Source: Lycium barbarum (taxonomy: Eukaryota; Streptophyta; Magnoliopsida; Solanales; Solanaceae). Taken from it: 64,000 bases of DNA. The stretch lies in the NCBI RefSeq assembly GCF_019175385.1, contig NC_083341.1, positions 88,190,321 to 88,254,320 on the forward strand. The letters are read 5' to 3'. Below the pieces are notes generated by a model that had not been told where the DNA came from, searched no databases, and worked only from the letters and a program-made list of their open reading frames with translations. Made by a program: the position numbers and the translations under genes. Shown in pieces: positions 30,222 through 58,728 of the stretch (position 1 is the first letter of the stretch; each line of letters opens with the position of its first letter).

Positions 30222-31445
30222 TTAATTAGAAGGAGGTGATGAAATACTAGTAGATTTTTCATCACCAATTATTGTTCCACAAACAAGAGGCTTAACTGTA
30301 GGTACCCTAAGACAACTAAGACTACCACCAGGAATCACAGAACACTCAGGTTGAGGCCTTTGCATTTGCCTTCCAGGAATACAATTCAATGAGAAATCAA
30401 TTCCAACATTTCTTAAGGGAAGTTTGTCACAATCTTGACTCAACTCAGTGAAGAAATTATAAGCAACAGTCAAATTCACAAGGCTTCTTATTGAACAAAC
30501 CAAGTCAGGCAACTCTCCAGTCAACTTGTTATGTGCCAAGTTAAGTACTTCAATGCCACTCAAGCAAGAAATTGTATCTGGCAAATGTCCCATTAGTGAA
30601 TTGGCACTCACATCAAGAACTTGCAAATCTGTCCACATTCCCACACCTTCTGGTATACAACCATTTAACTGGTTGTTTAGGAACAAAATCTCTTTAATTC
30701 TTGGACCCATGTACCCCAAACTAAAAGGAATACTCCCACTAAACTTGTTATTAGCAAAATTAATAACTGAAGCAGGAGAATTCCCTAAACTCTGTGGCAA
30801 CTCACCATCAAACTGGTTATTATTAAGAAAGATAGCATCAAGTTTTTTGTTGAAGAGATCTTCAGGAATTGGCCCTGAGAAACTATTGTATCTAAGATCT
30901 AAATAAACAAGATTAGGGATGTATAGAACTGTAGCAGGGAAAGGACCAGAGAAATGGTTGTTACTAAGGTCTAACTCAACAAGAGATGACAAATCTTTAA
31001 ATGTTTGTGGGATTGTGCCTGAAAATCTGTTGGTATTAAGGTGAAGGAGAGACATTTGTGTTAAGAAAGACAGTTCTTTAACAAGAGTGCCTTGAAGATT
31101 TGCATGATTGAGATCTATACCTGTAACAACAGGGTCAGTTGGGTTGCCCATGTAATCTTGAGAGTGTGAACAAAAGATACCTTTGTAAGTGCACACATTT
31201 GGACCAACCCAATTGTTCAAGATTCCCAATGGGTCATCAGTTATTACAGATTTCCATGTTTGAAGAGCAGTATAAGCTGAATTTTGGCTAGAAGGAACTC
31301 CACCTGGACCTGAAGTGTTAATCCCTCCACCAAACCAAACACCTCCAGTCCCACCACCTATGCCAACACCAACACCAACACCAGCACTAGCAACTTCAGT
31401 AACTATGATTTGAAGGAGCAAAACAAGAAGAAAACTTCTCCCCAT
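30222..31445 (-). CDS. Secreted leucine-rich-repeat protein, extensin-less LRX-like (At4g06744-like)
   Basis: A single uninterrupted 407-codon frame. Residues 1-21 form a signal peptide (MGRSFLLVLLLQIIVTEVAS). A glycine-rich segment follows (22-49), then an LRR N-terminal cap with paired Cys (NNWVGPNVCTYKGIFC), about nine plant-type LRRs (VELDLSNNHFSGPFP, LVYLDLRYNSFSGPIPEDLF, VLNLAHNKLTGELP) and a C-terminal cap with Cys (NCIPGRQMQRPQPEC). The LRR part resembles leucine-rich repeat extensins, but the protein stops soon after, with no SPPPP tail, as in the uncharacterised At4g06744 group. It is probably exported to the cell wall. The start sits in AAAAATGG. The gene looks intact; ligand and role are unknown. 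Confidence 0.92.
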   Translation of the reverse strand: MGRSFLLVLLLQIIVTEVASAGVGVGVGIGGGTGGVWFGGGINTSGPGGVPSSQNSAYTALQTWKSVITDDPLGILNNWVGPNVCTYKGIFCSHSQDYMGNPTDPVVTGIDLNHANLQGTLVKELSFLTQMSLLHLNTNRFSGTIPQTFKDLSSLVELDLSNNHFSGPFPATVLYIPNLVYLDLRYNSFSGPIPEDLFNKKLDAIFLNNNQFDGELPQSLGNSPASVINFANNKFSGSIPFSLGYMGPRIKEILFLNNQLNGCIPEGVGMWTDLQVLDVSANSLMGHLPDTISCLSGIEVLNLAHNKLTGELPDLVCSIRSLVNLTVAYNFFTELSQDCDKLPLRNVGIDFSLNCIPGRQMQRPQPECSVIPGGSLSCLRVPTVKPLVCGTIIGDEKSTSISSPPSN

Positions 31446-31670
31446 TTTTAAGGTGAATGGTCAAAAGAAGTTTTTTTTTTTTTTTTTTTTATGGACTTTT
31501 TCTTGTAAGGTTGTGCAAAATAAGATTGTAGCATTGATGAGAGACGATGTGGGGATTAATTGCTGGTTCTTCAATGAGGTTTATTGCATCTCTAGCTAAG
31601 TTATTATAATATGGTCTTACACTGACTCCCTCCGTCCTAAAATAACTGTGGGTTAAGCTTAAAAAAATTA
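31446..31670 (-). promoter_or_regulatory. Upstream region of the LRR gene
   Basis: Leader/promoter side of the LRR gene. A T20 run (31471-31490) would be an A-tract in the 5' leader. A possible TATA-like string (ATATTATAATA on -) lies near 31603-31613. A Stowaway-like end (CTCCCTCCGTCCTAAAATAA) at 31628 and a MITE at 31671 limit the promoter to about 200 bp of unique DNA. Assignments are tentative. Confidence 0.4.
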
Positions 31671-32136
31671 CGGAAAAGGGCCAAAATTACCCCTCAACTT
31701 TAGAAAATAGTTCATTTATACCCTTCGTTATATTTTAGGATCAATTATATCGTTACCGTTATACTATGAGGTCAATTATACCCTTATGTCTAACAGCTGC
31801 GACTCAAAATTATTTTCCCCTCAAATAATTTTTTACCCACTAAAATAACTCAACCCGACCCGAATTTTTTTTTCCAACCAAGGAGTAATGGGTTGGGTCG
31901 TATCAGTTTGGCTGGAAAAAAATATCGGGTCGAGTTGGGTTATTTTAGTGGATAAAAAATTATTTGAGGGGAAAATAATTTTGAAGGGCTAGGATGATGT
32001 CACGTGGCATCTGTTAGACATAAGGGTATAACTGATCCCATAGTATAACGGTAAGGGTATAATTGGCCCTAAAGTATAACGAAGGGTATGGATGAACTAT
32101 TTCCCAAAATTCAGGGGTAATTTTGGCCCTTTTCCG
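31671..32136. mobile_element. Mutator-type MITE with long inverted arms
   Basis: 466 bp, starting CGGAAAAGGGCCAAAATTA and ending with its complement. It is flanked by the 9-bp duplication AAAAAATTA (31662-31670 and 32137-32145). Inverted arms extend to the AACAGCTG/CTGTTAGAC region. Its arms carry the same kinds of CCCTTCGTTATA / TATAACGAAGGG blocks as the 1974-2711 element. Confidence 0.85.
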
Positions 32137-37542: not shown

Positions 37543-37693
37543 AATTCTACAGGTGTGTATTTGAATTATTTTCACAAGATGAAAAGGTACCACATAATCC
37601 ATTATCCATTTACTATTAGTTCTACATATATGTATGACTTTCTTATATTAAGGAATTTGTATGTATGTAAACATCAAGTTTTTAAATCGTTTT

Positions 37694-40294
37694 TGTCACA
37701 CCCTAATCTTGATAGGGCATGATGGGCACCCGACCCCATACTCAGGGCCGAGCGAACCCCTTTAACTCTCGCTATGTTCATAACCTCACGGGACTCTTAA
37801 GTTACGAAATGAGATGCATAATAAAAACTTGTCAAAACCATTCTTTTCGTCGTTCTCAAGTCAAGTAAAATCTGTAATCATATGGAATTTGTAACATAAA
37901 GCATAATGGTACGTCGGCTTGTAGCGCCGCTTACAAGACTGACATCCTATACACGTGACTCTGTCTGCAAAGTCTCTAACATCAATCAAGATACCATAAC
38001 ATGAATACTCTGACTCGGCAACACTCTAGAAGGAAATGGAGCTCGACATTCCAGCTGGTACATCTCCTAACAATGTCCTCTACTCATCTGCATACACCTG
38101 CGAGGCATGAAACGCAGCCCCCGAAGAAAGGGGGTCAGTACAAAATATGTACTGAGTATGTAAAGTATGAAACACGGTAAACAGAGCCATAATCGGAACA
38201 AGAAACACAATAAAGTAAGTACACTATCCAGAATACCAAATGCTTACTTTTTAAAACACAAATCATGCATGTCGATGGGATATGCCCTATCCGGCCCATT
38301 ATGGGACTCGGTGGACAAAACATGGTCGCCACCCCGTCATTGGCGCCATAACACATCATACTCCAGAATAAGGAATAACTCCGTAACACACCATACTCCA
38401 GAACACATCATACTCCAGAACACATCATACTCCAGAGTGTATATACATATAACGTGTCCCGGCCCTCTTTTGAGGGACTCGGTGAACAATGCAGTGAAAC
38501 GGCGCACGATAACATATCCTGGCCCGGGAATCAGTGAAAGACATATTGAGGCCTGCACGAGCAGAGTAGTGAGAAACTATATGCATATAAATCAATTTTC
38601 AAAACTCGATAGGTAAGTACACTAATCGACACTTGAAGGATCATAAACACGTTTCGAGTCAATCCGAGTTAGCACCAGAAAGTTATGGACGTTATTCATT
38701 ACAGAAACCTTTATGAACGTTTCAGAGCAATCCGAGTTAGCATATGAAAGTTATGGACGTTATTCATTATAGAAACCTCTATGAACGTTTCAAAACAATC
38801 CGAGACCGTCTATGAAAGTTAAGGGCATTAATCCTTATAGAACCCTTTTTAGGAACAGAATCTCTTTATGCTTTGCTCGTTATTCCATCATACAATAAAC
38901 TCGGCCATACTAAGCATGCTTATGTCAAGAAGTGAATAAGAATCATAAATAAGCTCGGAATTTAGGAATAGAGTTACCCCAAGGTACAGGTTATAACTTA
39001 CTTAGCTCTAAGACATGCCAAAAGAAAGAAAGGGTAAGCCTTACGTACCTTGTCCGCTTCCTAGGCTAATCCGAATTTAAGTCTCGACTTTCCCAAAATC
39101 TACAACAACGTCAGAAGATAGCAAACATTAGCTTTAGGTATTCAGGAATCCAATTCCAAGCTAGCAATTCACCTACAGAAATTTGGGCAGCATCTCCCCT
39201 ATAAACTCAACCCACCCCGAGAATTCAACTCGGCCAAATCATCAACAACAATACCATCAATCATACTTTCAACTTCAACAATTAATTCAAAATGCATACT
39301 AACGTTAGCAACCCTTCCTACATAATTCGACGACATTCCATTTACATCCCAATTAACCATAACAACCCAACTTACAATCTTCCAAACTCAATAAGAACAA
39401 CAACAACACATCCCTCGCTTCCAAGCTTATGAATTATACCAACAACCACACATTAACAACATCATTCATACAAATATAAGGAAACCATGCTAGTGTCACA
39501 TTAACTTCTTCAACAATCCCACAACGATTACAACTTCGTTTCAAGCCATCAAACCTTCATTTTTATCATGGAATCCACAACCACAACAATCAAAATATTA
39601 AATAAAATCAATTCACCACATCTTACCAACATAGCCCCTATTCGGCCACAACCAACACACATATATTTCATGAATTTCATCCATTTCTACATACTACAAC
39701 ACTCACAAACCATCCCTAACACATAGAAAAGGAGATTAAATTTTACCTTTATCCTTTAACTTCTCAACTTGGCTAGGGTTCACAACTTGCACCATGAATG
39801 CTTTGCTTGCTCCAACAACTACTCCACGTTAATAAGGGTCTTCCAATTGGTTGAAATGCTAGAAGAAAATTATTTTTCCTGATCAATTTCTATGGCATCA
39901 ATTTTCCTCTAGCCATGGCCGAATGCTCCCCTATTATTCTTTCTTGAAGTTTCTTGAATTTGTAAAGATGAATAATGTCTTGCTATGTAAGCACTTGTCC
40001 ATATATATAACTAGCCCCAACAAATAAAAAGGTGGACACATGCCCCCACTCATGGCTTGAGTTAATTGGCCAAGCCATGGGTGGGTCCCACACATGCCAC
40101 ACGGCCATAGTGGCTTCATGACCATATTTTTTTGAATTTTTTTCCCTTTTTACCCCTAGCCTTTCTCAATATTTCCATACAATTAATAACCAACTTGTGT
40201 ATTAAAATAAAATCGAAAAGAAATTAATAGCCTTGCCCTTAACTTATCGCGATTATCTTGAAACATCCGAATGTGCAAAATACGGGATACAACA
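37694..40294 (-). repeat. Gypsy (chromovirus-type) LTR, minus orientation, arm 1 of inverted pair
   Basis: Read on -, it starts TGTTGTATCCCG directly after a polypurine tract (40295-40308) and ends GGGTGTGACA at 37694. It is nearly identical to the complement of 41489-44082. Three tandem units of about 63 bp (38640-38830, CAATCCGAGTTAGCA.. ATGGACGTTATTCATTA) and repeated ACTCCAGAACACATCAT strings (38390-38435) lie inside. The ORFs at 38135-38616 are LTR sequence, not genes. Confidence 0.9.
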
Positions 40295-40439: not shown

Positions 40440-41475
40440 AGGCATAGGAAATAAATAAGGATACTTCTTCTTCACCTCATCCTCGGCTTCCTAGGTCATC
40501 TTCTCTCTGTTATTGTTTCGTCACAATACCTTTATAGAAGTCACGTTTTTGGTACGTAACCTTTTTACCTGACGATCCAGTATAGCTGTAGGTTGTTCCT
40601 CGTAAGATAGCTCCTCTGTCACCTAGATATCATTTAGGGGAAACACTCTGGAAAGGTCCCCAATGTATTTACGAAGCATAGACACGAGACTGGATGCACT
40701 GCTTCTAAATCAGATGGTAACTCTAATTCATAGGCGACCTTGCCAACCCTACGGACAATTTGATAAGGTCCAATATTCCTTGGACTGAGCTTTCCCTTCC
40801 TGGCAAATCTCATTATATCCTTCATGGGTGACACTTTCAGAATTACCAAATCGCCAACCTGGAACTCTAAGTGTCGACGTCGATTATCGCCATATGATTT
40901 CTGCCGACTCTGGGCTGCCAGTAACCGTTCCTGCATGAGTTTCACTCTATCAACTGCCTGCTGAATTATATCTGGACCGATTAACTTAGTTTCGTCAACA
41001 TCGAACCAACCGGTCGGTGACCTGCACTTCCTGCCATACAGGGCCTCATACGGCGCCATCTGGATGCCAGAATGGTAATTATTATTATAAGCAAACTCAA
41101 TAAGTGGTAAATGATCATCCCAGCTACCCTTGCAGTCAATAACACAGGCCCGCAGCATATCTTCTAGTGTCTGAATAGTACGCTCGGCCTGTCTCTCAGA
41201 CTGCGGTGCTAAGACTTACTTGGGTCCCCAATCCTTCTTGAAATGATCTCCAAATGTCATATATATGTTCTTATGCTCAGGTATTATAATCTTCATCCCC
41301 AATCCTTGTATAACTCTGCTCTCCCTTGAGCTTATACTAAGCCATCCACCGTCTTGATAACGGGAAATTTTCCAAGGTGTAACATCCTTCCTTAACTCTT
41401 TCATTGCTTCCAGTCAGTTTCTTCCACTTCTTTGTCCTCATGTACATGGTCGGAAATTAACTAACACCCCACTCT
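40440..41475 (-). pseudogene. Integrase C-terminal/chromodomain fragment between inverted LTRs
   Basis: The best frame (41158 to 40634) includes WDDHLPLIEFAYNNNYHSGI, APYEALYGRKCRSPTGWF, FQVGDLVILKVSP and the GPY/F-type SPRNIGPYQIVRRVGKVAYEL, all typical of chromovirus integrase. Beyond it, in broken frames to 40440, LDRQVKRLRTKN and KKKYPYLF recall the linker/chromodomain end of Tekay/Del elements. Short remnants of earlier pol occur at 41216-41404. The fragment belongs to the minus-strand element whose 3' LTR is 37694-40294. gag, RT and most of integrase are missing. Confidence 0.85.
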
Positions 41476-44082
41476 CATTTTGCACATTATTTTGCACATT
41501 CGGATGTTTCAAGATAATCGCGATAAGTTAAGGGCAAGGCTATTAATTTCTTTTCGATTTTATTTTAATACACAAGTTGGTTATTAATGGTATGGAAATA
41601 TTGAGAAAGGCTATGGGTAAAAAGGAAAAAAAAATCAAAAAAATATGGTCATGAAGCCACTATGGCCGTGTGGCATGTGTGGGACCCACCCATGGCTTGG
41701 CCAATTAACTCAAGCCATGAGTGGGGGCATGTGTCCACCTTTTTATTTTTTGGGGCTAATTATATATATGGACAAGTGCTTACATAGCAAGACATTATTC
41801 ATCTTTACAAATTCAAGAAACTTCAAGAAAGAAAAATAGGGGAGCATTCGGCCATGGCTAGAGGAAAATTGATGCCATAGAAATTGATCAAGAAAAATAA
41901 TTTTCTTCAAGCATTTCAACCAATTGGAAGGCCCTTATTAACGTGGATTAGTTGTTGGAGCAAGCAAAGCATTCATGGTGCAAGTTGTGAACCCTAGCCA
42001 AGTTGAGAAGTTAAAGGATAAATGTAAGATTTAATCTCCTTTTCTATGTGTTAGGGATGGTTTGTGAGTGTTGTAGTATGTAGAAATGGATGAAATTCAT
42101 GAAATATGTGTGTGTTGGTTGTGGCCGAATAAGGGCTATGTTGGTAAGATATGGTGAATTGATTTTATTTAATATTTTGATTGTTGTGGTTGTGGATTCC
42201 ATGATAAAAATGAAGGTTTGATGGCTTGAAACGAAGTTGTAATCGTTGTGGGATTGTTGAAGAAGTTAATGTGACACTAGCATGGTTTCCTTATATTTGT
42301 ATGAATGATGTTGTTAATGTGTGGTTGTTGGTATAATTCATAAGCTTAGAAGCGAGGGATGTGTTGTTGTTGTTGTTGTTCTTATTGAGTTTGGAAGATT
42401 GTAAGTTGGGTTGTTGTGGTTAATTGGGATGTAAATGGAATGTCGCCGAATTATGTAGGAAGGGTTGCTAACGTTAGTATGCATTTTGAATTAATTGTTG
42501 AAGTTGAAAGTATGATTGATGGTATTGTTGTTGATGATTTGGCCGAGTTGAATTCTCGGGGTGGGTTGAATTTATAGGGGAGATGCTGCCCAAATTCCTG
42601 TAGGTGAATTGCTAGCTTGGAATCAGATTCCTGAATACCTAAAGCTAATGTTTGCTATCTTCTGACGTTGTTGTAGATTTTGGGAAAGTCGAGACTTAAA
42701 TTCGGATTAGCCTAGGAAGCGGACAAGGTACGTAAGGCTTACCCTTTCTTTCTTTTGGCATGTCCTAGAGCTAAGTAAGTTATAACCTGTACCTTGGGGT
42801 AACTCTATTCCTAAATTCCGAGCTTATTTATGATTCTTATTCACTTCTTGACATAAGCATGCTTAGTATGGCCGAGTTTATTGTATGATGGAATAACGAG
42901 CAAAGCATAAAGAGATTCTGTTCCTAAAAAGGGTTCTATAAGGATTAATGCCCTTAACTTTCATAGACGGTCTCGGATTGTTTTGAAACGTTCATAGAGG
43001 TTTCTATAATGAATAACGTCCATAACTTTCATATGCTAACTCGGATTGCCCTGAAACGTTCATAAAGGTTTCTGTAATGAATAACGTCCATAACTTTCTG
43101 GTGCTAACTCGGATTGACTCGAAACGTGTTTATGATCCTTCAAGTGTCGATTAGTGTACTTACCTATCGAGTCTTGAAAATTGATTTATATGCATATAGT
43201 TTCTCACTACTCTGCTCGTGCAGGCCTCAATATGTCTTTCACTGAGTCCCGAGCCAGGATATGTTATCGTGCGCCGTTTCACTGCATTGTTCACCGAGTC
43301 CCTCAAAAGAGGGCCGGGACACGTTATATGTATATATACTCTGGAGTATGATGTGTTCTGGAGTATGATGTGTTCTGGAGTATGGTGTGTTACAGAGTTA
43401 TTCCCTATTCTGGAGTATGATGTGTTATGGCGCCAATGACGGGGTGGCGACCATGTTTTGTCCACCGAGTCCCATAATGGGCTGGATAGGACATATCCCA
43501 TCGACATGCATGATTTGTGTTTTAAAAAGTAAGCATTTGGTATTCTGGATAGTGTACTTACTTTATTGTGTTTCTTGTTCCGATTATGGCTCTGTTTACC
43601 GTATTTCATGCTTTACATACTGAGTACATATTCCGTACTGACCCCCTTTCTTCGGGGGCTGTGTTTCATGCCACGCAGGTGTATGCAGATGAGTAGAGGA
43701 CATTGCTAGGAGATGTACCAGTTGGATTGGCGAGCTCCATTTCCTTCTGGAGTGTTGCCGAGTCAGAGTATTCATGTTATGGTATCTTGAATGATGTTAG
43801 AGACTTTGCAGACAGAGTCACGTGTATAGGATGTCAGTCTTGTAAGCGGCGCTACAAGCCGACGTACCATTATGCTTTATGTTACAAATTAGATATGATT
43901 ATAGATTTTACTTGACTTGAGAACGACGAAAAGAATGGTTTTGACAAGTTTTTATTATGCATCTCATTTCGTAACTTAAGAGTCCCGTGTGGTTATGAAC
44001 ATAGCGAGAGTTAAAGGGGTTCGCTCGGCCCTGAGTATGGGATCGGGTGCCCATCATGCCCTATCAAGATTAGGGTGTGACA
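41476..44082 (+). repeat. Gypsy LTR, plus orientation, arm 2 of inverted pair
   Basis: Complement of the 37694-40294 LTR with few differences. The first bases (TGTTGTATCCCG) are missing and replaced by two copies of ATTTTGCACATT. It ends GGGTGTGACA at 44082, followed by a primer-binding site, so it acts as a 5' LTR for the sequence to its right. Confidence 0.9.
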
Positions 44083-44085
44083 AAG

Positions 44086-44097
44086 TGGTATCAGAGC
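44086..44097 (+). promoter_or_regulatory. Primer-binding site (initiator tRNA-Met type), element A
   Basis: TGGTATCAGAGC starts four bases after the LTR end and matches the usual tRNA-iMet primer-binding site of plant LTR elements. Confidence 0.92.
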
Positions 44098-45009
44098 GGT
44101 TCGTCGTAGGGGTTGTCTGCAAAGTCGTGTCTAGTAGAGTCCTGTTTATGGGTGTGAAGCCGGCCACATTTATAAACAGGAGGCTGCAGGGCATCTAGGG
44201 ATCATTGACCTTCTTTCTGTCTTAGATCGTGCGATAGAGGCAAGTCATAGGAAATGAGATTCCTTATACTAACCTTTGATCTCAGCAGAAGCACAGTATC
44301 GACGGGAGAAAGTGAGTAATGATACGGGAAGTCACAGAGGTAAGTTTTGATATTTTCATTCTTTTACCTTAAATTGGGGGCCCTGGGTGGCTGGGATATG
44401 TCGTATACATATGTATGCCCTGTGAGGCATTGTTGGTATTTGCTGCGTGCAGATTTTGAATGGTAAGAATTGTAAAGAAGACTCTTCCAGAATTTTTTTA
44501 AAATCAGGTCGTTTAGTTAGGTGCACCTAACAGGAAGAAACGTGGAAAGGAAATATCGTAAATAGACAATAAGTGGGATGTGTTGTTTTAGAGGAGTTAT
44601 GGATTTGGCATGGCATGAAGAACGATTGCGAGAAAGACGATTAGTAGTCCGAAGGATTAAAATGGGTTACATTTGAGGTTTAGTAGGAGCAAGGCCTATT
44701 GGGGGATTCAAGGAAAGTCGACAAATGAGTTCTGCTGTAGATTATTATATAAGAGTGGCGAGCGGAAGTCCAAAGAGGTGGATAATTGAGTATTTATAAG
44801 TAACGGCGACGAAGGTGTGTTCGCTACCATTAGGAACCCGGGAATCCACGATGAAAGGTAGCCATACACACAGGTGAAAGGTGAATATCGGGGATTGAAG
44901 GGGGCTAAAATAGTAATTTTTAAGGAGAAAGACGTGTTACGAGAATGTCTCGGAATCTGTAAGACTTCAACTTGCTCCAGATCATGTAATGAAGGTCGTG
45001 CGGAGAGGT

Positions 45010-45117
45010 GGATGCGATTATTCCGGTATTAATGCACTGGATTTCATCGAAGTTTTAAGGTTAAGCGTGCTAAGGTGAGAGAAATATTAGGATGGGTGAC
45101 CCCCCCTCCGGGAAGTG
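45010..45117 (+). ncRNA. 5S rRNA-derived sequence inside element A
   Basis: It follows the plant 5S rRNA gene along nearly its whole length: GGATGCGATTATTCC, TAATGCACTGGAT, then GTTAAGCGTGCT (45060-45071) and TTAGGATGGGTGACC (45087-45101), ending GGGAAGT. The last two strings are the A-box and C-box blocks of the 5S internal promoter and are unchanged. The middle is diverged and C bases are inserted after GGGTGACC. It is a pseudogene copy, but the promoter blocks remain. Described from memory of the 5S consensus. Confidence 0.85.
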
Positions 45118-45228
45118 TACTAAAAGTCCTATAGATTTAGACATAAGAGGCAAAGGAGAAGCTAGAGTAGCCTAAGGGAAATTAGAGTATACGGAATGGT
45201 TGGAAACCTTAAGGAGGTCGCGTAGGAC

Positions 45229-45233
45229 GAGGC
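45229..45233 (+). other. Probable target duplication of the minus-strand cluster
   Basis: GAGGC here and AAGGC at 56460-56464 flank the 45234-56459 cluster. Four of five bases match. Confidence 0.6.
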
Positions 45234-45929
45234 TGTCACACCCTAATTCCACTAGGGTGTGATGGGCACCTGGCCTCACATCCGGAGCCGAGCGAACCCA
45301 CAGACCTTTGGGACACACAAAATCTTATTAGACTTTTAAATCAAATAAAGATAAAATACATAGTAAACTTTCAAAATATTCTTTTTCGATGCTTTCCGAA
45401 TCAAACAGAATCTGTGATCATACAGAATTATTTACATTATACAGAATGACATATCGGCTGATGAAGCCGCTTACACAACCGACATACTATACCTACGACT
45501 CTGTCTGCAAAGTCTCTAACATCAATCCCGAAGAAAGCATACATACAAACTCTGACTCGGCAGCACTCCAAAAGCAAATGGAGCTTGCCAACTCTGTTGG
45601 AACATCCTCTATAATAACTTCACATCGCCTGGGTGTACTTACGCGGCATGAAACGCATCCTCCGAAGAAAAGGGGATCAGTACGGAATATGTACTGAGTA
45701 TGTAAAGCATAAGGTACAATAAACAGAGTCATAATCTGAACAGGGGATACAGAAAAATAAGTGTAGTAACCGGAGTATAAAAAATGCTTGCTCATAAAAC
45801 ACAGGTAATGCATGTCAGAACATATGCCATATCCGGCCCCATTATGGGACACGGTGAACAGAAAGTGGTCGCCACCCCGTCACTGGCGCCACAACACAGC
45901 ATACTCCAGAGTAGGGAATAGCTCCGTAA
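45234..45929 (-). repeat. Truncated LTR of the minus-strand cluster
   Basis: Starts TGTCACACCC (the LTR 3' end read on -) and matches the first ~700 bp of the LTR at 46023, breaking after GCTCCGTAA. The remaining ~2.2 kb of this LTR is absent. Confidence 0.88.
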
Positions 45930-46022
45930 AATAAATGGTACAAGTGTCACACCATAAACAGGACTCTACCGGACATGACTTTGCAGACGACCCCTAGGAC
46001 AAACCTTGCTCTGATACCACTT
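45930..46022 (-). other. Short leader remnant with primer-binding site between two LTRs
   Basis: About 75 bp match the leader next to the other LTR (53.49-53.57 kb). The tRNA-Met primer-binding site, read on -, is at 46008-46019. The first ~18 bases (AATAAATGGTACAAGTGT) recur exactly at 56696-56713 in the internal region of element A. Confidence 0.8.
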
Positions 46023-48914
46023 TGTCACACCCTAATTCCACTAGGGTGTGATGGAAACCCGGCCCCACATCCAGAGCCGAGCGACCCCACAGACCTTTGG
46101 GACACACAAAATCTTATTAGACTTTTAAATCAAATAAAGACAAAATACATAGTAAACTTTCAAAATATTCTTTTTCGATGCTTTTCGAATCAAACAGAAT
46201 CTGTGATCATACAAAATTATTTACATTATACAGAATGACATATCGGCTGATGAAGCCGCTTACACAACCGACATACTATACCCACGACTCTGTCTGCAAA
46301 GTCTCTAACATCAATCCCGAAGAAAGCATACATACAAACTCTGACTCGGCAGCACTCCAGGAGCAAATGGAGCTTGCCAACTCTGCTGGAACATCCTCTA
46401 TAATAACTTCACACCGCCTGGGTGTACCTGCGCGGCATGAAACGCAGCCCCCGAAGAAAAGGGGGTCAGTACGGAATATGTACTGAGTATGTAAAACATA
46501 AGGTACAATAAACAGAGTCATAATCTGAACAGGGGATACAGAAAATAAGTGTAGTAACCGGAGTATCAAAAATGCTTGCTCATAAAACATAGGTAATGCA
46601 TGTCAGAACATATGTCATATCCGGCCCCATTATGGGACACGGTGACCAGAAAGTGGTCGCCACCCCGTCACTGGCGCCACAACACAGCATACTCCAGAGT
46701 AGGGAATAGCTCCGTAACATATCATATCATATCAGAATGTGCACATATCAAACATATCAGATGGCCATATCATATCATATCATCACATTTCAGAATATGT
46801 GTACATGGCACAGCATACTCCACAACCCATGTACATGTATACCTGCCCCCTCACATCGAGGCACGACGAACAATGCAGTGGAATACGCGTGATAACATAT
46901 CCTGGCCCGGGCTCAGTGAAGGAAGCATTGAGGCATCCACGAGTAGAGTAGTGAGAAACTATATGCATCATAAAACATTTACAAAGACTCGATAGAATAG
47001 TCCGAACGATAGGTCATTAGAAAAGAAATCAGACGATAGTCATAGTACGTACCTTTCGGATGTTACGACGGATTATGTCAAAGTAAAAATGCTGAGATTA
47101 TTTGTACATATCAAAATATCGTAGGATTCAATAGAATAGTTAAAACAACTATCGTTTAGTAGTCGGAATAATAACCAAAAGTTTCTTTTAATCATAGTAC
47201 GGAAAATAGGTCAAGTAGAAAATACAAGAAGGTTTCGGAAATTGTGGGGCCACCTCGGGTCAAGTCGAGATGGCGCACATAAATTACAGACATTAGGCCT
47301 TATGGAGGCGTCAACGAAAGTTTCGGGGCATTCCGATTCTCTTTGTGAAAGTTATGAACGTTTTATGACGCAAGACCCTTTTTGGAGTAAAAAGGTGCTT
47401 AAACACATTTTTTTCCAACAAAACCTAATTCAATTACATTGAATGAATAAGGGTCAAAATTAAGCTCGGATTTTAAGGAGTAGAGTTATCCCCGAGGTCC
47501 GTATCATGGCCTATCATAACTAGGACATGCCAAAGAAAGAAAAAGTAGAGCTTTACATACCTTACTCGCTTCTTACGCTAATCCAAACTCGAGTTCCGAA
47601 CTTCCCAAAATCTACAATTGGTCAAAATACCAGACATTAACCATAAGCATTTAGGTATTCAATCTTAAGTAACACTTATCTACAGAAATTTGGGCAGCAT
47701 CTCCCCTATAAATTCACCAACCCCGAGAATTCAACTCGGCCAAAACATCAACAACAATACCAAGAATAGTATTAACAACATCAACCATCCATTTAAAATG
47801 CATTCTAACATAAGTAATCTTCTTTTCTACATAGTTCATCAATATTCAATTCAACTTCGTACATTCGAACCAATATCAACGCTTACATATTCATTTACTA
47901 ACTCAAGATCGTTCCAACATGATTCAAGAATATTTTAAACAATCTACACAATATTCCAACATTTCCACCGAAACCATACTTCGCCCGAAAACTCACCAAC
48001 TTCCCTAGGAACAATTTTAATGCATTTCTTGCTTCCAAATTCATGAACTATCCCAACAACACACATTCTAACAACATTATTCTCACGATTAAAGAAACGA
48101 CACTAACATTACATCGGCTTCCAAATCATCCCATAATAATTCCAACATCAATTTAAGTTATCAAATTCTCATTTCCATCACAAAATACATAACCACATCA
48201 ACTAACCTCCCACCTTCACACACACACACACACACGGCCACATGCACATACATACAACCACCATACAAACTTCCATATTTTCATGAATTCTATCCATTTC
48301 TACATACTACAACATAAACAAACCCTTCATAACATATAAAAAGGGATTAAATCTTACCTTTTCTTCCTAGCTTCTCCACTTGGCTAGAATCTACAACTTG
48401 CATGAATATATGTTTTTCTTGCTCCAGTAATCACTTCATCTTACTAAGGACCTTCCAATTAGTAGGAAATAATTTTTGAGCAATTTTTTTCTCAAGGTTC
48501 TTGTTAAATTCTCCATGGCCGAATGACCTTCAATGTTGTAGCCTTCTTTTTCTTCTTCTATTTTCTTGAACATTCCAAGAGATAAAATGAAATAATACAT
48601 GGTCCATCTCTTTATTTATTTCTTGAATTAAAATTTTCATGGGCCTTGGGCCATCTTGCCATATGGCCGGCCACCTCTTGGGCTTCTTTCTTATTTTTGT
48701 TTTATTTTCAAGCCCAATTATTCCATGGCTAATTGTAATTCATGAAAACTAATTTTTCCCAATTTCCAATTTTTCCCTTAGCCTTCCTCAATATTTCAAC
48801 ACCCATAACTCTTATAAACAACTTATGTACTAAACAAGGTTAAAATGTAGGCTTGCACTCAACCTCTCGCAATTATCTTGAATTTTCCGAATGCGCGAAA
48901 TGCGGGATATAACA
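46023..48914 (-). repeat. Full LTR of the minus-strand cluster (shared middle LTR)
   Basis: 2892 bp; read on - it starts TGTTATATCCCGCATTTCG and ends GGGTGTGACA. It has primer-binding-site sequence on its left and a polypurine tract (48915-48930) on its right, so it served as LTR for internal regions on both sides. Almost identical to 53569-56459. Confidence 0.92.
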
Positions 48915-48930
48915 TCCTCACCCCCTTTAA
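48915..48930 (-). promoter_or_regulatory. Polypurine tract of element C
   Basis: Read on -, TTAAAGGGGGTGAGGA directly precedes the 3' LTR start TGTTATATCC. Confidence 0.8.
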
Positions 48931-49039: not shown

Positions 49040-49660
49040 AGTAAGGAATTTTTGAGTACCTGTGGGTATAGGAAATAGGTAGGTCATTCCTTCTTTGTCT
49101 CCTCTTCAATTTCTTCCTATTATTGTTCCGTCATAATGGTTTAACGGATGCCACATCTTTATTACGCAATCTCCTCACCTGACGATCCGATATGGCTATT
49201 GGCTGTACCTCGTAGGACAATTCCTTTGTCCCCTGGATGTCTTTCACGGGAAATATTCTGGAAGGGTCACTAACGCATTTGTAAAGCATTGGATGTACCG
49301 CCTCCAGGTTAGATGGTAGGTCCAATTTATAGGAAATCTTGCCTACCTTACGAACGATTTGATAAGGTCCCATATATCTCGGCTAAGCTTTCCTTTTTCT
49401 AACGAATCTCATAACACCCTTCACATGTGACACCTTTAGAAGTACCCAATCATCGACTTGGACTCTTAATGTCGACGTCGGTCGTCTGCGTATAATGTAT
49501 GTCGACTCTGGGCTGTTAATAGCCGTTCCCGAATGAGTTTCACCTTGTCAACTGTCCGTCAAGTTATATCCGTGCCAAGTAACCTAGCCTTGTCACTATT
49601 AAACCAGCCAAGTAATGGCGCACACCTCTTGCCATACAGAGCCTTATACGGTGTCTTCTA
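49040..49660 (-). pseudogene. Integrase tail and chromodomain-linker remnant of element C
   Basis: The frame 49373-49131 reads MGPYQIVRKVGKISYKLDLP (GPY/F module), then a degenerate linker ending SDRQVRRLRNKDVASVKPL, after which stops interrupt a chromodomain-like end (to about 49050). Upstream traces (VSHVKGVMRFVRKRK, stop, PRYMG) show in-frame decay. It is the same module as the fragment at 40440-41158. Confidence 0.82.
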
Positions 49661-52600
49661 AATGCTAGAACGACGACTATTATTACCAGTAACTCAACAG
49701 ATGGCAAGTGTCCATTCTTGCTGCCTTTGATAACACGCTTAGCATGTCCGTCAGTTACAAGCTAATGCTGTGCTAAGACTTATTTGTGTCCTCAATTCCT
49801 TCCGAAAAGATTTCCAGAATTTACTATACACTATGCCCTCTGTCCGATATAATAGATGTGGAAATCTTGTGAAATCTCACTACCTCCTGGAGGTGCAACT
49901 TTACTTAGTCCTGATCGTCCTGCTTAAATCATTCCATAATTTCCTTAATTTAACTTGTCATACCTTAGATTTATTACCTCGTGTCACTCTTGTACCTTTA
50001 ATTCAAATTCTTCTATTGCCCTTTCTCCGCGGTTTTGCTCTTAACTTTGTGTCACTCATTAGGTCATAATCTTTACTAGGACATGTGAAAATATGCACGT
50101 TAGCTCAAGAAAATACCTTCGCGACGTTTCACCACTCTCTACGCTTTTCCTTGACTTCTCTCAGTTATCTTACAATCAGTATCGGGAGGGGTCTTTGATT
50201 CAACCCTGATTAATTTCTACTTGCCCTTAGTACCGACTCTATCTTGGTAACTTGATTTAAACCATCTCTGCATTTTGTTTTCTATATCGCATCCAAAATA
50301 TCATAACTATATTGTTATTATTGAATCCTTACTTCTCCTTATCAAGTTCTCACTCACTTGGCTTGCTTAACGTACAAATATTCATAAGTTGCATAACCAT
50401 TCTCGCATATTCGTATAAAGTGTATTCAATCTCAGACATATTCTTTTCCTCTCCTGGTTTATTCTGTTCTACACATCCCGTTCATACCAAAGTTCGTTTG
50501 TTCTATCATGTTGTATCCCGTTTTCCTTGGTCACTTATAAGTCGTACTATCATTAACGAATAACTCTATAGCCAACATCTTGACCTTTAATCCACATACT
50601 ATTGCTATGCTTTGTAACATCCTCTTAAGTTACTTGTTATCATTCTCCTGTCATATCCCTCCTTCAGGGTGTTCCCATTGCATTATCTATTTATTTTCCG
50701 TTCCATGTCTCCATTTAAAGTTTTCAAACTCATATGATTCTTTTCCAATATATATAGCGTACCGCACCATATCCCCGACTCATAGCCAATTAGTTACGCC
50801 CACTTTGCGTGCTTCCTTTGGTACTCTTTTCATTCTTTGCCCTCTATGTCGGCTTCACGGTACATCCATTGTCAATTTGTTTCTACTCCTTCCATGTCTC
50901 CTTTTGATGCGCCGACATATTTCGGACTCTGGTCCCGAGCTAATAAATTTCCCTTTCTGGCGTTCGATCATGTTATGATTCCCTTTTGGCCTAATATCAT
51001 ACGTTCTCCCCCCTTTAAGGGGCTCCTTGTGTGTCAACAGTCTTCGAGTACTTTAGGCTACGATAATTACCTCATTCCTCGTCCATGTTTCTAATTCTGA
51101 GCATAACATATCAAGACTTCTTACCATAAGTTTTCATTTTTTTTTTTTAACCATATCATCATTTATCAATATTCCTTTACCTTCCTATCTACTATTCATC
51201 CTCGCGAACATTTAGTTCATTTGCTCGTAAGTCTCCTTAACTGTACGCTCGTATTGCAGCCGTGCATCCATACTTTTTGAGAGTCCACTACCTTTGCTCT
51301 AAGCACAAAGTCCATACAGTTTACACTCTCTCTATCTTTACTCATTGAGCTTTTAATTATGCTTATGACACTATGATCTATCAATCTCCCTAGCTCGTTC
51401 CTTGTACTTCATTCCATTTCCTCCAAAATCAAAACTGTCGAACTTCGCATGAATTCTTATTCCATATCATTAATATCCTAGTCAACAGTGTCAACCCATT
51501 ACACTTGTTCTTTCCTTGGTGTGTAACCGGGTTCCCATCGCTAATTCGTCAAAGTATCCCTCTCACTTCTATGATTAAAGATTTCCAATGGTTTTATTTC
51601 CAAAGGTTTTTCTCTTCCTTGGACTATCCCATTAGTATATTTTTCCTGCTTTCCTCATTAACCTTTCTTGGGTTCCTTCCTCCTCGAACACTTTTCTGCT
51701 TTTGCCATTTGTGGCATCGACTCTGAAGTTTACGAAATTTTCACTTTAAGCTGGCAAATCTGTTTCACCTCTAGATCATCCTTTCAGGAGAACACTTTTA
51801 CGTCCGAGATGATCACATTAACGCGACTGCATATTGTCCCTTTGTATGCCAAATCTCCTGTCATCGTCACAAGGCTTTATCGTTCTTTTTCTTACTTCAC
51901 ATTATTTGTCGTAGTCACTATTTCTTTAGTCCCACTTTTTGAAATTGGTTCTCGAACCTCACACATTCCTCCTTTGCTCCATATGACCGCATCTTATCCT
52001 TTTCATATTCCTATCTTTGAATTTGTATTCAAATAGTCTCGTACTTTGCCGGTAATTTCTCTCGAGCTTCCCTTGCCGGGATTCCTTACCTTTTTCCGAC
52101 ATTTTGGTCTCTTGTCCTCCATCTACGCACTCTCTTTCTTTTTCAAATATCGTTGCATTATAACCTTTCCAGTCTTAGCCTGTAATGAAAATAATAACAA
52201 CTTGCCTTATAGCACTTGCACCATTTATTTCTGTTGTCGTTTAAGCTTCGGTGCCCTTACTCAATTAATGTCTTCCACACCGTAGTACCGGCTGTTGAGA
52301 CTCACATGTCCGCCGATACGATCACATATGGGATGTCGTACGCATTCATACATACATATATATAATTATTACCAACTAACCCACAAAATACCTCCAAACG
52401 CTATTCAAGCCTATCCTAATTCCAGAGCTGTGGCGTACTTTCTGTCTCTCCTCTAGTCTAGCCTGTCGCGTGCTGTGTGGCCTTTCATGGTCTCCAACCA
52501 TCCCGTATACTCTAATTTCACTCAGACTATCCTAGCTTTTCATTTGTCTCTTATGGCTAAATCTTTGGGATTTCTTGCTTACTTCCCAGGGGTCACCCAT

Positions 52601-53553
52601 CCTAAAATTGCTCCCCCCTTAGCACGCTTAACCTCGAAACTTTGGTGGAATCCGATGCCTTAATACCGATATAATCGCATCCGCTTTCTCATATGGCCTT
52701 TATTACATGATTTGAGGCCAGTCAAAATCTTACAGGTTCCGAGGCATTTTCGTATTACGCCCTTCTTTGTACAATTACTATTTTACCCCTTTTCACGTAT
52801 GTGTATGATTATTGCATGTCCTGGGCTTCCAGATTACTGATGGTGGCGGACATACCTTCGTCGCCATTACCTATAAGTACTCAGGTATCCGTATGTCCAG
52901 ATTTCCTCTTACCATCCGTACATACTAATCTACAGCAAAACTGATTGTTAACTTTTTCTGAATCATCCAACAAACCTTGTTCTTACTAACCTCAAATTTT
53001 TTATCCCTTTTAACTCTTCGGACTGTTAATCATCTTTCTTACAATCGTTCTTCACGTCGTGCCCAAATCTGTAGCTTTTCTAAGATGTCACATCCCACTT
53101 ATCGTCTATTTACGATGTTTCCATTCCATGCGTCTTCCTGTTAGATATACCTAGTTAAATGACCACATTTTGAAAAATTTGACCGAGTCTCCTTTACCAT
53201 CTTTATTATGCAAAATCTGTACGCCACAATTATCAACAATACCTTACAGAGCATACAGCTATATAACACATTCCAGTCATCCTGAACTTTCAATTTCAAA
53301 TAACGGAACAAATACATCAAGACTTACTTTTATGACTTTCCCTGTCATCCCCTACCTTCTCCCGTCTTATGTAAAGCTCATATAAGGAATTTCAATTTCC
53401 TATGACTTAGCTCTATCGCACGATCTAAGACAGCAAGAAGGTCAACAATCCCTAGATGCCCCGTAGCCTCCTGTTTATAAATGTGGCGCACTTCACACCA
53501 TAAACAGGACTCTACCGGACACGACTTTGCAGACGACCCCTAGGACAAACCTT
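49661..53553 (-). other. Non-coding internal region of element C
   Basis: Many short frames occur but none resembles gag, protease, RT or RNase H. It aligns by eye, as complement, with element A's internal halves. One shared block (51030-50800) has GGGGGGAGAACGTATGAT and GGGAAATTTATTAGCTCGGG. It contains the second 5S-derived segment. Confidence 0.82.
52581..52682 (-). ncRNA. 5S rRNA-derived sequence inside element C
   Basis: Read on -, it starts GGATGCGATTATATCGGTAT. It contains GTTAAGCGTGCTAAGG and TTAGGATGGGTGACC and ends CCCTGGGAAGT. The A-box and C-box blocks of the 5S promoter are intact and the middle is diverged. It lies about 0.89 kb inside the 5' LTR, the same place as the copy in element A (about 0.93 kb). 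Confidence 0.85.
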
Positions 53554-53565
53554 GCTCTGATACCA
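53554..53565 (-). promoter_or_regulatory. Primer-binding site of element C
   Basis: Read on -, TGGTATCAGAGC lies just inside the 5' LTR end, matching the tRNA-iMet type. Confidence 0.92.
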
Positions 53566-53568: not shown

Positions 53569-56459
53569 TGTCACACCCTAATTCCACTAGGGTGTGATGG
53601 ACACCCAGCCCCACATCCGGAGCCGAGCGAACCCACAGACCTTTGGGACACACAAAATCTTATTAGACTTTTAAATCAAATAAAGATAAAATACATAGTA
53701 AACTTTCAAAATATTCTTTTTCGATGCTTTCCGAATCAAACAGAATCTGTGATCATACAAAATTATTTACATTATACAGAATGACATATCGGCTGATGAA
53801 GCCGCTTACACAACCGACATACTATACCCACGACTCTGTCTGCAAAGTCTCTAACATCAATCCCGAAGAAAGCATATATACAAACTCTGACTCGGCAGCA
53901 CTCCAGGAGCAAATGGAGCTTGCCAACTCTGCTGGAACATCCTCTATAATAACTTCACATCGCCTGGGTGTACCTGCGCGGCATGAAACGCAGCCCCCGA
54001 AGAAAAGGGGGTCAGTACGGAATATGTACTGAGTATGTAAAGCATAAGGTACAATAAACAGAGTCATAATCTGAACAGGGGATACAGAAAATAAGTGTAG
54101 TAACCGGAGTATCAAAAATGCTTGCTCATAAAACATAGGTAATGCATGTCAGAACATATGTCATATCCGGCCCCATTATGGGACACGGTGACCAGAAAGT
54201 GGTCGCCACCCCGTCACTGGCGCCACAACACAGCATACTCCAGAGTAGGGAATAGCTCCGTAACATATCATATCATATGAGAATGTGCACATATCAAACA
54301 TATCAGATGGCCATATCATATCATATCATCACATTTCAGAATATGTGTACATGGCACAGCATACTCCACAACCCATGTACATGTATACCTGCCCCCTCAC
54401 ATCGAGGCACGGCGAACAATGCAGTGGAATACGCATGATAACATATCCTGGCCCGGGCTCAGTGAAGGAAGCATTGAGGCATCCACGAGTAGAGTAGTGA
54501 GAAACTATATGCATCATAAAACATTTACAAAGACTCGATAGAATAGTCCGAACGATAGGTCATTAGAAAAGAAATCAGACGATAGTCATAGTACGTACCT
54601 TTCGGATGTTACGACGGATTATGTCAAAGTAAAAATGCTGAGATTATTTGTACATATCAAAATATCGTAGGATTCAATAGAATAGTTAAAACAACTATCG
54701 TTTAGTAGTCGGAATAATAACCAAAAGTTTCTTTTAATCATAGTACGGAAAATAGGTCAAGTAGAAAATACAAGAAGGTTTCGGAAATTGTGGGGCCACC
54801 TCGGGTCAAGTCGAGATGGCGCACATAAATTACAGACATTAGGCCTTATGGAGGCGTCAACGAAAGTTTCGGGGCATTCCGATTCTCTTTGTGAAAGTTA
54901 TGAACGTTTTATGACGCAAGACCCTTTTTGGAGTAAAAAGGTGCTTAAACACATTTTTTTTCCAACAAAACCTAATTCAATTACATTGAATGAATAAGGG
55001 TCAAAATTAAGCTCGAATTTTAAGGAGTAGAGTTATCCCCGAGGTCCGTATCATGGCCTATCATAACTAGGACATGCCAAAGAAAGAAAAAGTAGAGCTT
55101 TACATACCTTACTCGCTTCTTACGCTAATCCAAACTCGAGTTCCGAACTTCCCAAAATCTACAATTGGTCAAAATACCAGACATTAACCATAAGCATTTA
55201 GGTATTCAATCTTAAGTTACACTTATCTACAGAAATTTGGGCAGCATCTCCCCTATAAATTCACCAACCCCGAGAATTCAACTCGGCCAAAACATCAACA
55301 ACAATACCAAGAATAATACTAACAACATCAACCATCCATTTAAAATGCATTCTAACATAAGTAATCTTCTTTTCTACATAGTTCATCAATATTTAATTCA
55401 ACTTCGTACATTCGAACCAATATCAACGCTTACATATTCATTTACTAACTCAAGATCGTTCCAACATGATTCAAGAATATTTTAAACAATCTACACAATA
55501 TTCCAACATTTTCACCGAAACCATACTTCACCCGAAAACTCCCCAACTTCCCTAGGAACAATTTTAATGCATTTCTTGCTTCCAAATTCATGAACTATCC
55601 CAACAACACACACTCTAACAACATTATTCTCACGATTAATGAAACGACACTAACATTACATCGGCTTCCAAATCAGCCCATAATAATTCCAACATCAATT
55701 TAAGTTATCAAATTCTCATTTCCATCACAAAATACATAACCACATCAACTAACCTCCCACCTTCACACACACACACACACACACGGCCACATGCACATAC
55801 ATACAACCACCATACAAACTTCCATATTTTCATGAATTCTATCCATTTCTACATACTACAACATAAACAAACCCTTCATAACATATAAAAAGGGATTAAA
55901 TCTTACCTTTTCTTCCTAGCTTCTCCACTTGGCTAGAATCTACAACTTGCATGAATATATGTTTTTCTTGCTCCAATAATCACTTTATCTTACTAAGGAC
56001 CTTCCAATTAGTAGGAAATAATTTTTGAGCAATTTTTTTCTCAAGGTTGTTAAATTCTCCATTGCCGAATGGCCTTCAATGTTGTAGCCTTCTTTTTCTT
56101 CTTCTATTTTCTTGAACATTCCAAGAGATAAAATGAAATAATACATGGGCCATCTCTTTATTTATTTCTTGAATTAAAATTTTCATGGGCCTTGGGCCAT
56201 CTTTCCATATGGCCGGCCACCTCTTGGGCTTCTTTCTTATTTTTTTTTATTTTCAAGCCCAATTATTCCATGGCTAATTGTAATTCATGAAAACTAATTT
56301 TTCCCAATTTCCAATTTTGCCCTTAGCCTTCCTCAATATTTCCACACCCATAACTCTTATAAACAACTTATGTACTAAACAAGGTTAAAATGTAGGCTTG
56401 CACTCAACCTCCCGCAATTATCTTGAATTTTCCGAATGCGCGAAATGCGGGATATAACA
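53569..56459 (-). repeat. 5' LTR of element C
   Basis: 2891 bp, read on - from TGTTATATCCCG (56459) to GGGTGTGACA (53569). It contains a (CA)n run near 55765 and ATCATATCAT microrepeats near 54265-54330. Confidence 0.92.
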
Positions 56460-58728
56460 AAGGCGGACTAGATCGGTGAAGAGAAGGAAGGTGCTTCACG
56501 GCTCTAGAACTAGGATGAGGTTGAATAGCATTTGGAAATATTTTGTAAGCGAGATGGTAGTAAGTATATATATATATGTATGCATATGGTATCCTATTTA
56601 TGACTGCATCGATGGACATGTGTATCCCAGCAACCGGTGTTACGGTATGGAAGGCATCAATCGAGCAAGGGTACCGAAGTTCAAGTGACAACAAAAATAA
56701 ATGGTACAAGTGTTACAAGGTAAGTTGATGTTATTTTTACTACATGTTATGATTGGAAAGTTCTAATACAACGATATTTGGAAAAGAAAAAGAGTGAGTA
56801 TAAGGAAGCTAAGGAGGTCAAATGTCGGAAAAAGGGGAAAAGTAAGAAACCTCAGTGAGTGAAGCCTCCGAGAGGCTCGATTATAAAGGAAATAGAATGA
56901 AGTGTAAGGAACGTGCATGGAAGATCACTCGGCCGAAGCATCATAAAGATAGATAAAAGTTCGATGAACGAAGGTTGAGAGAGTATAGACTGTAAGAACT
57001 CTATGCTAAGATCAAAAGTAGCAGGACGCTCGTAAAACATGGATGCACAGCTGCAACACAAACGCGTAGTTAAGAAGAATTACGAGTAAGTGAGCTAAAT
57101 GGGTGAAAGGACTAATAGTGGATGGAATATTAACAAGAATGACGATATAGACGCAAATGAAAGAAAAACTTATGTTAAGAAGTTTTCGATATGTTATGCG
57201 CAGAGTTGGAAAGAAAGACGAGGAGTAAGGTATAATCGAAGACTTCATAAAAGGACATAGTGAATCTCGACGTCCCCATGAACTTGTGAGTCCAGGACAC
57301 CGCTAGTCACAAAAGACAGAGGTATGGAAAGACGAAAAAGAAGGCATCGGAATTGGATACCCTTATAAGTATTCTAGTTAAATACGAGAGTGTAAGTAGC
57401 AAGAAGATAGACAGGCCAGACCATACGATGACGAAACCCCGGCCTTAAGAAGATAGTGAAGGGCGGTAGATAATTATCGAAGACGAGGGTACTCGAAGAC
57501 TATTGGCGTATAATGATCTCCTTAATAAGGGGGGAAGAACATGTTATATTAGACTTAAAAGGAATCGCGACATTTTCAAGGTCCAAAGGAGGAAAATTTA
57601 TTATTTCGGGGCCAGAGTTCAAAACATATCGGCATATCAGGAGGATACCTGAAAGAAGTAGAAACGAATTGACAATAAGTGTACCATGAGGCAGACGTGA
57701 GGAGAAAGTATGGAAGACACCTTAAGAGAATGTTTCATGCCGACATGAACAATGATATGTTAGACCATGATTTGAATACCTCATATCGGGCAAATTTGCG
57801 CCGTACCTAAGTACGCAGCGACATGTCTTAAAGGGGTAATGAAAAGAGCAAGAAAGGTCTTTAAGCTAAATTCACAAAGGATAATGAGAGGATGACAAAA
57901 TTCAAAGGATATTTCGGATGACAACGACTATTATAATGAAAGTACCAACGATTGGTAGTCTGGAAATTTTTGAAGGAAAAGAAAGAACGCTGCTCCTATG
58001 AACGGAAATAAAATAGTTCACCGGATATTAAGAAAATATTTCGTGGACCATTAATTATACTGAACATGAGAGTATACGCTATATAATTATATGAACCATC
58101 AACGTGAAGCTATGCCCAATTATAATCGTAAGAAGTCCAGAACCGGAGAGCCAACAAGGACTAACGATTGACGAAATGATCGCCAATACAAAGAAATCAA
58201 AGACGGGTATACTGGTGTCGAGAAATGTGAGGGAATAAAATAAGGAAAAAGTTGCAGCAAGAGCTCAAAGATGTCGCGAGCTAAGAAATTAATTGAACTC
58301 GGATCATAAGTGGCCATAAGTGTGATTGGACTACGAAGGATAATAAATGGCGAAGAAACATTACGTATATATGTTTTTGGATATTGACATAACTGGCTTT
58401 GGAAAGGAACCTAACCATTATGCTCATTAGCGACAAAGTCATGATTGGATAAATATTTTGAATACAAGGTTAAAAGGGATAGTGACAAAGACGTAAAGGA
58501 ACGGGGAGTCGAACTAATGAACTACAGGGAGTCGATGCAGTGTACGTCTAAGATCAACAGGTACAAAAAGGATAGCCTGAGGTGGTACCGAAAAAGATAA
58601 ACACAAAGAGTATACTGTATATAAGCAAGGTAAATTCCCACTAGCGAGGAAACAAGGAGCGAGAAAAAAAAAGAATACTAAAAGGCCGATGAATGGTTAT
58701 AGCATGGTAAGCAAGACTACAACACTGT
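56460..58728 (+). other. Internal region of element A, 3' part
   Basis: Continues element A after the inserted cluster. Homologous, by eye, to the complement of about 52.44-50.3 kb (shared TTGAATAGC(A/G)TTTGGA, AATAAATGGT(A/G)CAAGTG and GTAGAAAC(G/A)AATTGACAAT strings). No protein frame on either strand. Confidence 0.78.

Follow-up and report, generated by a model that had tools for sequence, protein, structure and literature searches.

The window, by which we mean the whole 64,000-nucleotide stretch of Lycium barbarum DNA that was analyzed, contains two nested long terminal repeat (LTR) retrotransposons, called here elements A and B, each with a segment derived from 5S rRNA in its leader. 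The features are listed below with the kind of evidence on which each was placed.

40634..41215, minus strand: integrase fragment adjoining element A (PF24626, E value 1.7e-18)
41488..44082, plus strand: 5′ LTR of element A, about the first 12 bases missing, ending in GGGTGTGACA (self-BLAST, sequence)
44086..44097, plus strand: primer binding site TGGTATCAGAGC of element A (sequence)
44086..45233, plus strand: leader of element A, as far as the point where element B is inserted (alignment with the leader of B)
45010..45116, plus strand: 5S rRNA-derived segment, copy A (5S positions 1 to 104; 69 of 92 ungapped matches; RF00001, 27.6 bits)
45059..45070, plus strand: A box GGTTAAGCGTGC, intact (fits the box A consensus in the available text of PMC7215508)
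45089..45101, plus strand: C box AGGATGGGTGACC, intact (begins 18 bases past the A box)
45234..46022, minus strand: tandem remnant of element B, an extra LTR fragment (45234-45933) plus 76 leader bases (45947-46022) (self-BLAST)
46023..48914, minus strand: 3′ LTR of element B (self-BLAST, junction sequence)
48915-48928, minus strand: polypurine tract of element B (junction sequence)
49134..49382, minus strand: integrase end remnant in element B (PF24626, E value 2.2e-10)
52441..53553, minus strand: leader of element B (alignments)
52581..52682, minus strand: 5S rRNA-derived segment, copy B, of another subfamily (70 of 92 ungapped matches; RF00001, 29.2 bits)
53554..53565, minus strand: primer binding site of element B (sequence)
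53569..56459, minus strand: 5′ LTR of element B (self-BLAST)
56460..57715, plus strand: element A continued past the insertion of element B (self-BLAST, junction sequence)

Element B was nested within the leader of element A, with a 5-base target duplication (GAGGC/AAGGC) equal at four of five positions, and the region between its LTRs spanned 4.65 kb. The 5′ and 3′ LTRs of B were 98.65% identical over a 2,971-column match that included 76 leader bases. Copy A of the 5S segment started 928 bases downstream of the LTR end, past the primer binding site, and the position in an LTR-element leader that an earlier, sequence-only reading had assigned to it was thereby confirmed. The best-conserved part of the two leaders was the first 200 bases (44086-44285), in which 172 of 194 positions were identical. 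By eye, that part of element A also contained a 10-base inverted repeat, TCCTGTTTAT/ATAAACAGGA, around GCCGGC that could be a dimerisation or packaging signal. Moreover, two LTRs of one subfamily (37692-40294 and 41488-44082; 97.8% identical) lay in inverted orientation on either side of an integrase fragment, an arrangement that looks like a fused or self-integrated product.

Other features were seen elsewhere in the window. A second, young LTR element was bounded by LTRs at 5922-8415 and 13151-15646 that were 99.3% identical, and protease, RT, RNase H, and integrase frames at 16081-20853 are a candidate part of it. A gene for a leucine-rich-repeat extensin-like (LRX-like) protein, 86 to 89% identical to Solanum proteins, lay at 30222-31460 on the minus strand. 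A unit of about 104 bases was repeated in tandem at 11486-12483, where an open frame contained many Cys and Arg residues, and a MIR2863-like hairpin at 31823-31965 scored 57.8 bits, under the family cutoff of 94.

Both leader segments were evident in an ungapped scan of the window with 92 bases of plant 5S, which gave 69 matches at 45010 on the plus strand and 70 at 52682 on the minus strand. The next best position on either strand gave 41 matches (mean, 22.6; standard deviation, about 4.1), a gap by which a chance match was rejected, and the scan found no third 5S segment in the window, LTRs included. Full-length alignment to RF00001 gave 27.6 bits for copy A (45010-45135; E value of 0.029 for an 11-kb stretch searched with all 4,227 families and 0.17 for the whole window) and 29.2 bits for copy B (52682-52562, minus strand; E values of 0.011 and 0.062, respectively). 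Both scores are lower than the RF00001 gathering score of 38, and at the gathering threshold RF00001 had zero matches in the window. Taken alone, the RF00001 scores came close to overturning the 5S identification that the sequence-only reading had made, and it was the ungapped comparison that upheld it. We conclude from the gap in the ungapped scan that 5S homology is far above chance, despite the subthreshold RF00001 scores.

The host 5S gene, read from an array in the same genome, gave the same picture as plant 5S. In the least diverged class of leader copies (L084, L087, and L111), the 5S part started sharply at position 1 and stopped at about position 104. Neither the 5S fold nor the 3′ end of a functional 5S rRNA gene was found in the window copies: the scores were below the gathering score, the fold was unstable, and homology was gone past about position 104.

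Both window copies had exact A and C boxes separated by the 18-base spacing of the 5S gene, and the box pattern had 2 matches in the window, with 0 expected. Host gene, copy A, and copy B were all equal at 24 of 25 box sites versus 40 of the 67 other sites within the first 92 (P = 3e-4), in agreement with the original impression of unchanged promoter blocks in an otherwise diverged sequence. When the two leaders were compared with each other, identity was 85% inside the 5S part (84/99) and 73% outside it (589/803, first 200 bases excluded). The published C box corresponds to 5S positions 80 to 89 (PMC3409069), and constraint in the leader copies extended past it to position 102. Conservation of the boxes as codons of a peptide was rejected, as site counts indicate that third positions are equally frozen.

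The carrier had been described from the sequence as a large gypsy-type element, a description corrected here to a nonautonomous gypsy derivative. The only coding remains recognized in A and B were broken integrase-end pieces (PF24626). No gag-pol coding region was found, the integrase end being the sole match in the pieces scanned (for B, all 7 pieces on the list; for A past the insertion, 4 of 29), and PF00385 had no match in the broken fragments beside the PF24626 end. Among plant relatives of the integrase fragment at 40634..41215, some had the chromodomain PF00385. Open frames in the 40 leader loci sampled reached 197 amino acids at most, and none of the 10 loci scanned from that sample had a retroelement domain. 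Element B, with its LTR pair, primer binding site, polypurine tract, and long noncoding interior, has the makeup of a LARD. The LTRs of A and B ended in GGGTGTGACA with GGG at −8 to −10, the type A U5 end described for Del elements in the accessible portion of PMC4029996. Thus, the broken integrase-end pieces as sole coding remains, together with the PF24626 integrase end and the type A LTR end, make the carrier look like a nonautonomous gypsy derivative with Del/Tekay hallmarks. The tRNA-Met primer binding site is a further likeness to Del/Tekay chromoviruses and the LARDs derived from them, whereas gag and pol are missing or broken here and 5S rRNA goes unmentioned in that portion of PMC4029996.

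The host genome (1.67 Gb; a single genome) was searched for further copies. A leader motif located just past the primer binding site had 4,480 exact occurrences, and the exact box pair had 8,358 occurrences, real 5S genes counted in; the reversed control gave 0 in each case. The 100 box pairs listed were all on one chromosome, where none of the 47 scored 5S genes among the matches listed was located, and by eye the gene's own spacer was present in 0 of them. Leaders were then sampled without regard to 5S by fetching 40 of the first 45 among 100 listed leader-motif places, with five close tandem neighbors skipped. A 5S segment was present in 29 of the 40, with scores of 22 to 86, and the 11 leaders without one scored 13.5 or less, shuffled loci reaching 16 at most. 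All but one of the 29 segments reached position 101 to 102, the exception (L093) holding positions 1 to 42 only, and 26 lay 450 to 915 bases past the leader motif, with L084, L087, and L098 farther away. Relatives of each window copy gave a similar result: the segment was present in 37 of the 39 nearest matches listed for the A group, for which the 484 bases preceding the 5S part served as the query, and in all 20 loci fetched from 39 nonself matches for the B group, picked by the upstream flank.

Six loci (L108 to L113) from five other spacer classes each contained a single box pair and no primer binding site in the 2.2 kb fetched. Outside the 5S part, four of them (L110 to L113) matched the window leaders, and the match of L109 extended 39 bases beyond that part; for L108, similarity to the window leaders was confined to the 5S part, yet it matched L113 over 1.1 kb. 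Because loci of the other spacer classes match either the window leaders or L113, the superfamily is probably wider than 4,480 copies. Leader motifs were also seen at regular steps on one strand of G000 C1, every about 5.7 kb at 25.247-25.264 Mb and every about 4.4 kb at 47.245-47.263 Mb, and these are tandem arrays, like the extra LTR behind B. The box and leader patterns had no exact match in viral contigs or GTDB genomes, collections that by design are without plant genomes. Moreover, no relative of the integrase was confirmed in viral contigs, plasmids and phages gave no match to the leader, and a protein search with pseudo-translations of both leaders scored 0 of 74 candidates.

Selection on the boxes was assessed in 86 copies that were not picked by their boxes, on a tree built from flanks only and with changes assigned by parsimony. 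The 86, out of several thousand, were taken by listing order on one chromosome and as nearest neighbors of both window copies; thirteen loci without 5S were dropped by score, L084 and L087 were omitted from the tree because their 5S part lies more than 2 kb from the motif, and the box-picked L108 to L113 were omitted from the main count. Internal-branch changes per site were 0.00 in the A box, 0.15 in the C box, and 0.10 in 5S positions 93 to 102. Elsewhere, the rates were 1.31 in 5S positions 1 to 49, 1.33 in the middle (62 to 79), 1.24 in the upstream flank, and 1.81 in the downstream flank, such that the 5′ half of the 5S part evolves at the flank rate. The ratio of internal to terminal changes was 2:37 in the 25 box sites versus 374:758 in the flanks, 5S positions 1 to 49, and the middle (P = 7e-5), and versus 88:195 in 5S positions 1 to 49 and 62 to 79 alone (P = 2.4e-4). 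When the sample was cut to its smallest, the two window copies and 27 leader-motif copies (29 sequences), P was 0.029. In 20 random half-samples of 45, boxes differed from the rest of the 5S part at a one-sided P of <0.05 in 14 (median, 0.026), with internal rates per site of 0.05 and 0.69, respectively. The weaker figures from the smallest set and the half-samples are points against the favored reading. When a mask of the two boxes was slid over 240 placements, a count as low as 2 internal changes appeared only at 5S starts 50 and 51, and the lowest count among the 88 placements wholly outside the 5S part was 21.

Both the excess conservation of the boxes across family copies and the selected role that the sequence-only reading had suggested for them are supported by the internal-branch counts. 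Within the A subfamily alone, pairwise differences per site (two interrupted copies included) were 0.13 in the A box, 0.06 in the C box, 0.13 in 5S positions 1 to 49 and the downstream flank, and 0.06 to 0.07 in the upstream flank. The A box was therefore no less variable than most other parts of that subfamily, which counts against conservation and is expected if dead copies drift. In the region between the boxes, counted with the six box-picked loci included, positions 70 to 72 and 74 to 76 were without internal change, and positions 63 to 65, 67 to 69, 73, and 77 to 79 varied. A block at about −31 to −11 upstream of the 5S part was moderately conserved and contains CACGTGATAAAG in the least diverged class. 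Because box changes are scarce on internal branches and present on terminal branches, we conclude that the boxes are under purifying selection during element activity and that this selection is relaxed after insertion. What the analysis shows is 5S homology, the place of the segment in the leader, a large number of copies, and selection acting on the boxes.

One way in which the boxes could be selected is as binding sites. We favor, with moderate confidence, the reading that a captured 5S fragment has had its control region kept by selection and that the boxes most likely act at the DNA level as sites for TFIIIA (TFIIIC). The bound factor and the effect of its binding are what we infer. A spacer of 9 bases was present in 4 of the 86 copies (L053, L061, L065, and L102), all of one subfamily and all four with both boxes intact, and in 6 of the 100 box pairs listed from the genome search; such a spacer should disturb the classical TFIIIA contact and counts against docking. 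Constraint past the published C box and the A-box variability of the A subfamily are further points against it.

Selection on the boxes could also indicate a working pol III promoter that makes short transcripts, about 300 bases to a T4 run, of use to the element as, for instance, a decoy or regulator. Consistent with such transcripts, both boxes are retained along with part of the intermediate element, 80 of 86 copies have the 18-base spacing, and a T4 run about 300 bases downstream is common to both window copies. However, T4 runs within the 5S body were as frequent as in shuffled sequences (24 of 86 copies versus 20.0 ± 4.2) and were present in both window copies, and a TATA box was not readable in the upstream stretch of either A or B. 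Moreover, by the logic of LTR replication, a pol III transcript that starts at the 5S +1 lacks R, U5, and the primer binding site and is useless as a genome for retrotransposition. For that reason the leader 5S is not the promoter of the genomic RNA, unlike in Cassandra, where the 5S control region serves as the element promoter. The pol III transcription raised as a possibility by the sequence-only reading thus gained no support, and we regard a pol III promoter serving the element as unlikely.

Less probable again is that the conserved bases act in the element RNA rather than in DNA, in packaging, export, or a protein-binding hairpin. The segment is in the sense orientation relative to the element, and positions 93 to 102, past the classical C box, are also constrained, as an RNA role would allow. 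No stable fold was found in either window copy (z = +0.74 for both), each copy retained 15 of 17 5S base pairs, no more than chance predicts (P = 0.59 and 0.45), and the pairing partners in the 5′ half change at the flank rate. A selected 5S RNA structure was rejected on the unstable fold and the flank-rate 5′ half. We conclude that a selected 5S RNA or a productive pol III transcript is unsupported, given a 5′ half that changes as fast as the flanks, the lack of a conserved fold, and T4 runs as common as in shuffled sequences.

Cassandra is a TRIM reportedly described by Kalendar in 2008. In the available text of PMC10853983 and PMC7215508, Cassandra is an LTR retrotransposon with a 5S-derived A box, intermediate element, and C box and no coding capacity. 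The leaders described here share its tRNA-Met primer binding site TGGTATCAGAGC, their box pair and spacing match, both window copies fit its A and C box consensus (PMC7215508, available text), and the variable stretches between the boxes are close to MotIE and MotC (PMC10853983, available text). Cassandra carries 5S in the LTR and is shorter than 1 kb, whereas in both A and B the segment is in the internal leader past the primer binding site, the LTRs are 2.6 to 2.9 kb, and the internal region of B is 4.65 kb. The contrast with Cassandra that was drawn from the sequence alone therefore holds, as the LTRs were without 5S in the ungapped scan. Ajax, reported from two nemerteans, and Helenus / TRIMp3, with Helenus carrying tRNA sequence, are likewise nonautonomous LTR elements with a small-RNA-gene promoter, but that promoter is in the LTR and the elements are short (PMC10886601, in part). 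The 5S-bearing elements among these, Cassandra and Ajax, are both very short with 5S in the LTR, as far as the accessible parts of PMC10886601 and PMC10853983 describe them. A literature search of titles and abstracts, mostly outside subscription papers and preprints, yielded, among the matches listed, no LTR element with 5S in its leader or internal region. In the literature examined, 5S control regions are known from the LTRs of tiny TRIMs; here such a region is internal, past the primer binding site of large LTR elements, and is under selection in several subfamilies.

An inserted Cassandra could itself have brought the segment, such that Cassandra's own selected boxes would explain the pattern with no selection in the gypsy element. 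The same primer binding site and box pattern in Cassandra (PMC7215508 and PMC10853983, each in part) fit that origin. As an explanation of the pattern we consider this very improbable, as box changes are also missing on branches that postdate the superfamily split, by which time the leader already contained the segment, and the six loci of the other spacer classes are superfamily leaders or linked to them, none Cassandra-like in layout. Simply as the source of the segment, Cassandra may still account for it. The latter loci had been considered as Cassandra candidates and were rejected by that layout. Finally, a passive relic, with survival of the boxes owed to chance, to low mutability, or to the alignment, would fit the fewer terminal changes in the C box (1.0 versus 1.9 to 3.3 per site in other parts) and the undiminished A-box diversity of the A subfamily, but we give it hardly any weight, as the internal-to-terminal ratio controls for mutability and yet differs, and the CpG within the A box had 8 terminal-branch changes and one internal-branch change (six box-picked loci included).

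The docking-site reading can be put as a sequence of events. A 5S fragment, from position 1 to about 104, would have entered, long ago, the untranslated leader of a lineage bearing Del/Tekay hallmarks, and after capture that lineage would have become a large, mostly noncoding superfamily of LTR retrotransposons. The internal control region, comprising the A box, the C box, and the adjacent 3′ bases, would be kept while elements are active and would decay in dead copies, and the 5′ half of the 5S part, needed only for the RNA fold, would be free to drift. The boxes would hold TFIIIA, and TFIIIC through TFIIIA, in the leader about 0.5 to 0.9 kb past the primer site. The effect of docking there would be on chromatin, on nuclear position, or on output by pol II, and would not come through a functional pol III RNA.

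A partial precedent is available in mouse, in which 5S pseudogenes keep their internal boxes beyond the rest of the sequence and some are located at the nucleolus and bind TFIIIC, although TFIIIC binding tracked nucleolar position poorly (PMC3261910, in the text available). Those pseudogenes differ in being dispersed, mammalian, and outside any LTR element.

We propose tentatively that selection maintains thousands of TFIIIA-type (type 1 pol III) control regions in the superfamily as docking sites, through which the element's chromatin, nuclear position, or output by pol II would be steered, and not for 5S RNA or a pol III genome. The leader control regions may outnumber the host's real 5S genes. 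As the selected region lies past the primer binding site, a control region kept as a genome promoter becomes separable from one kept as a binding site, and the thousands of natural variants, the 9-base deletion between the boxes included, offer material for testing TFIIIA and TFIIIC sites in a mobile element. In practical terms, these leaders may be caught when 5S genes, pseudogenes, or Cassandra are annotated in such genomes.
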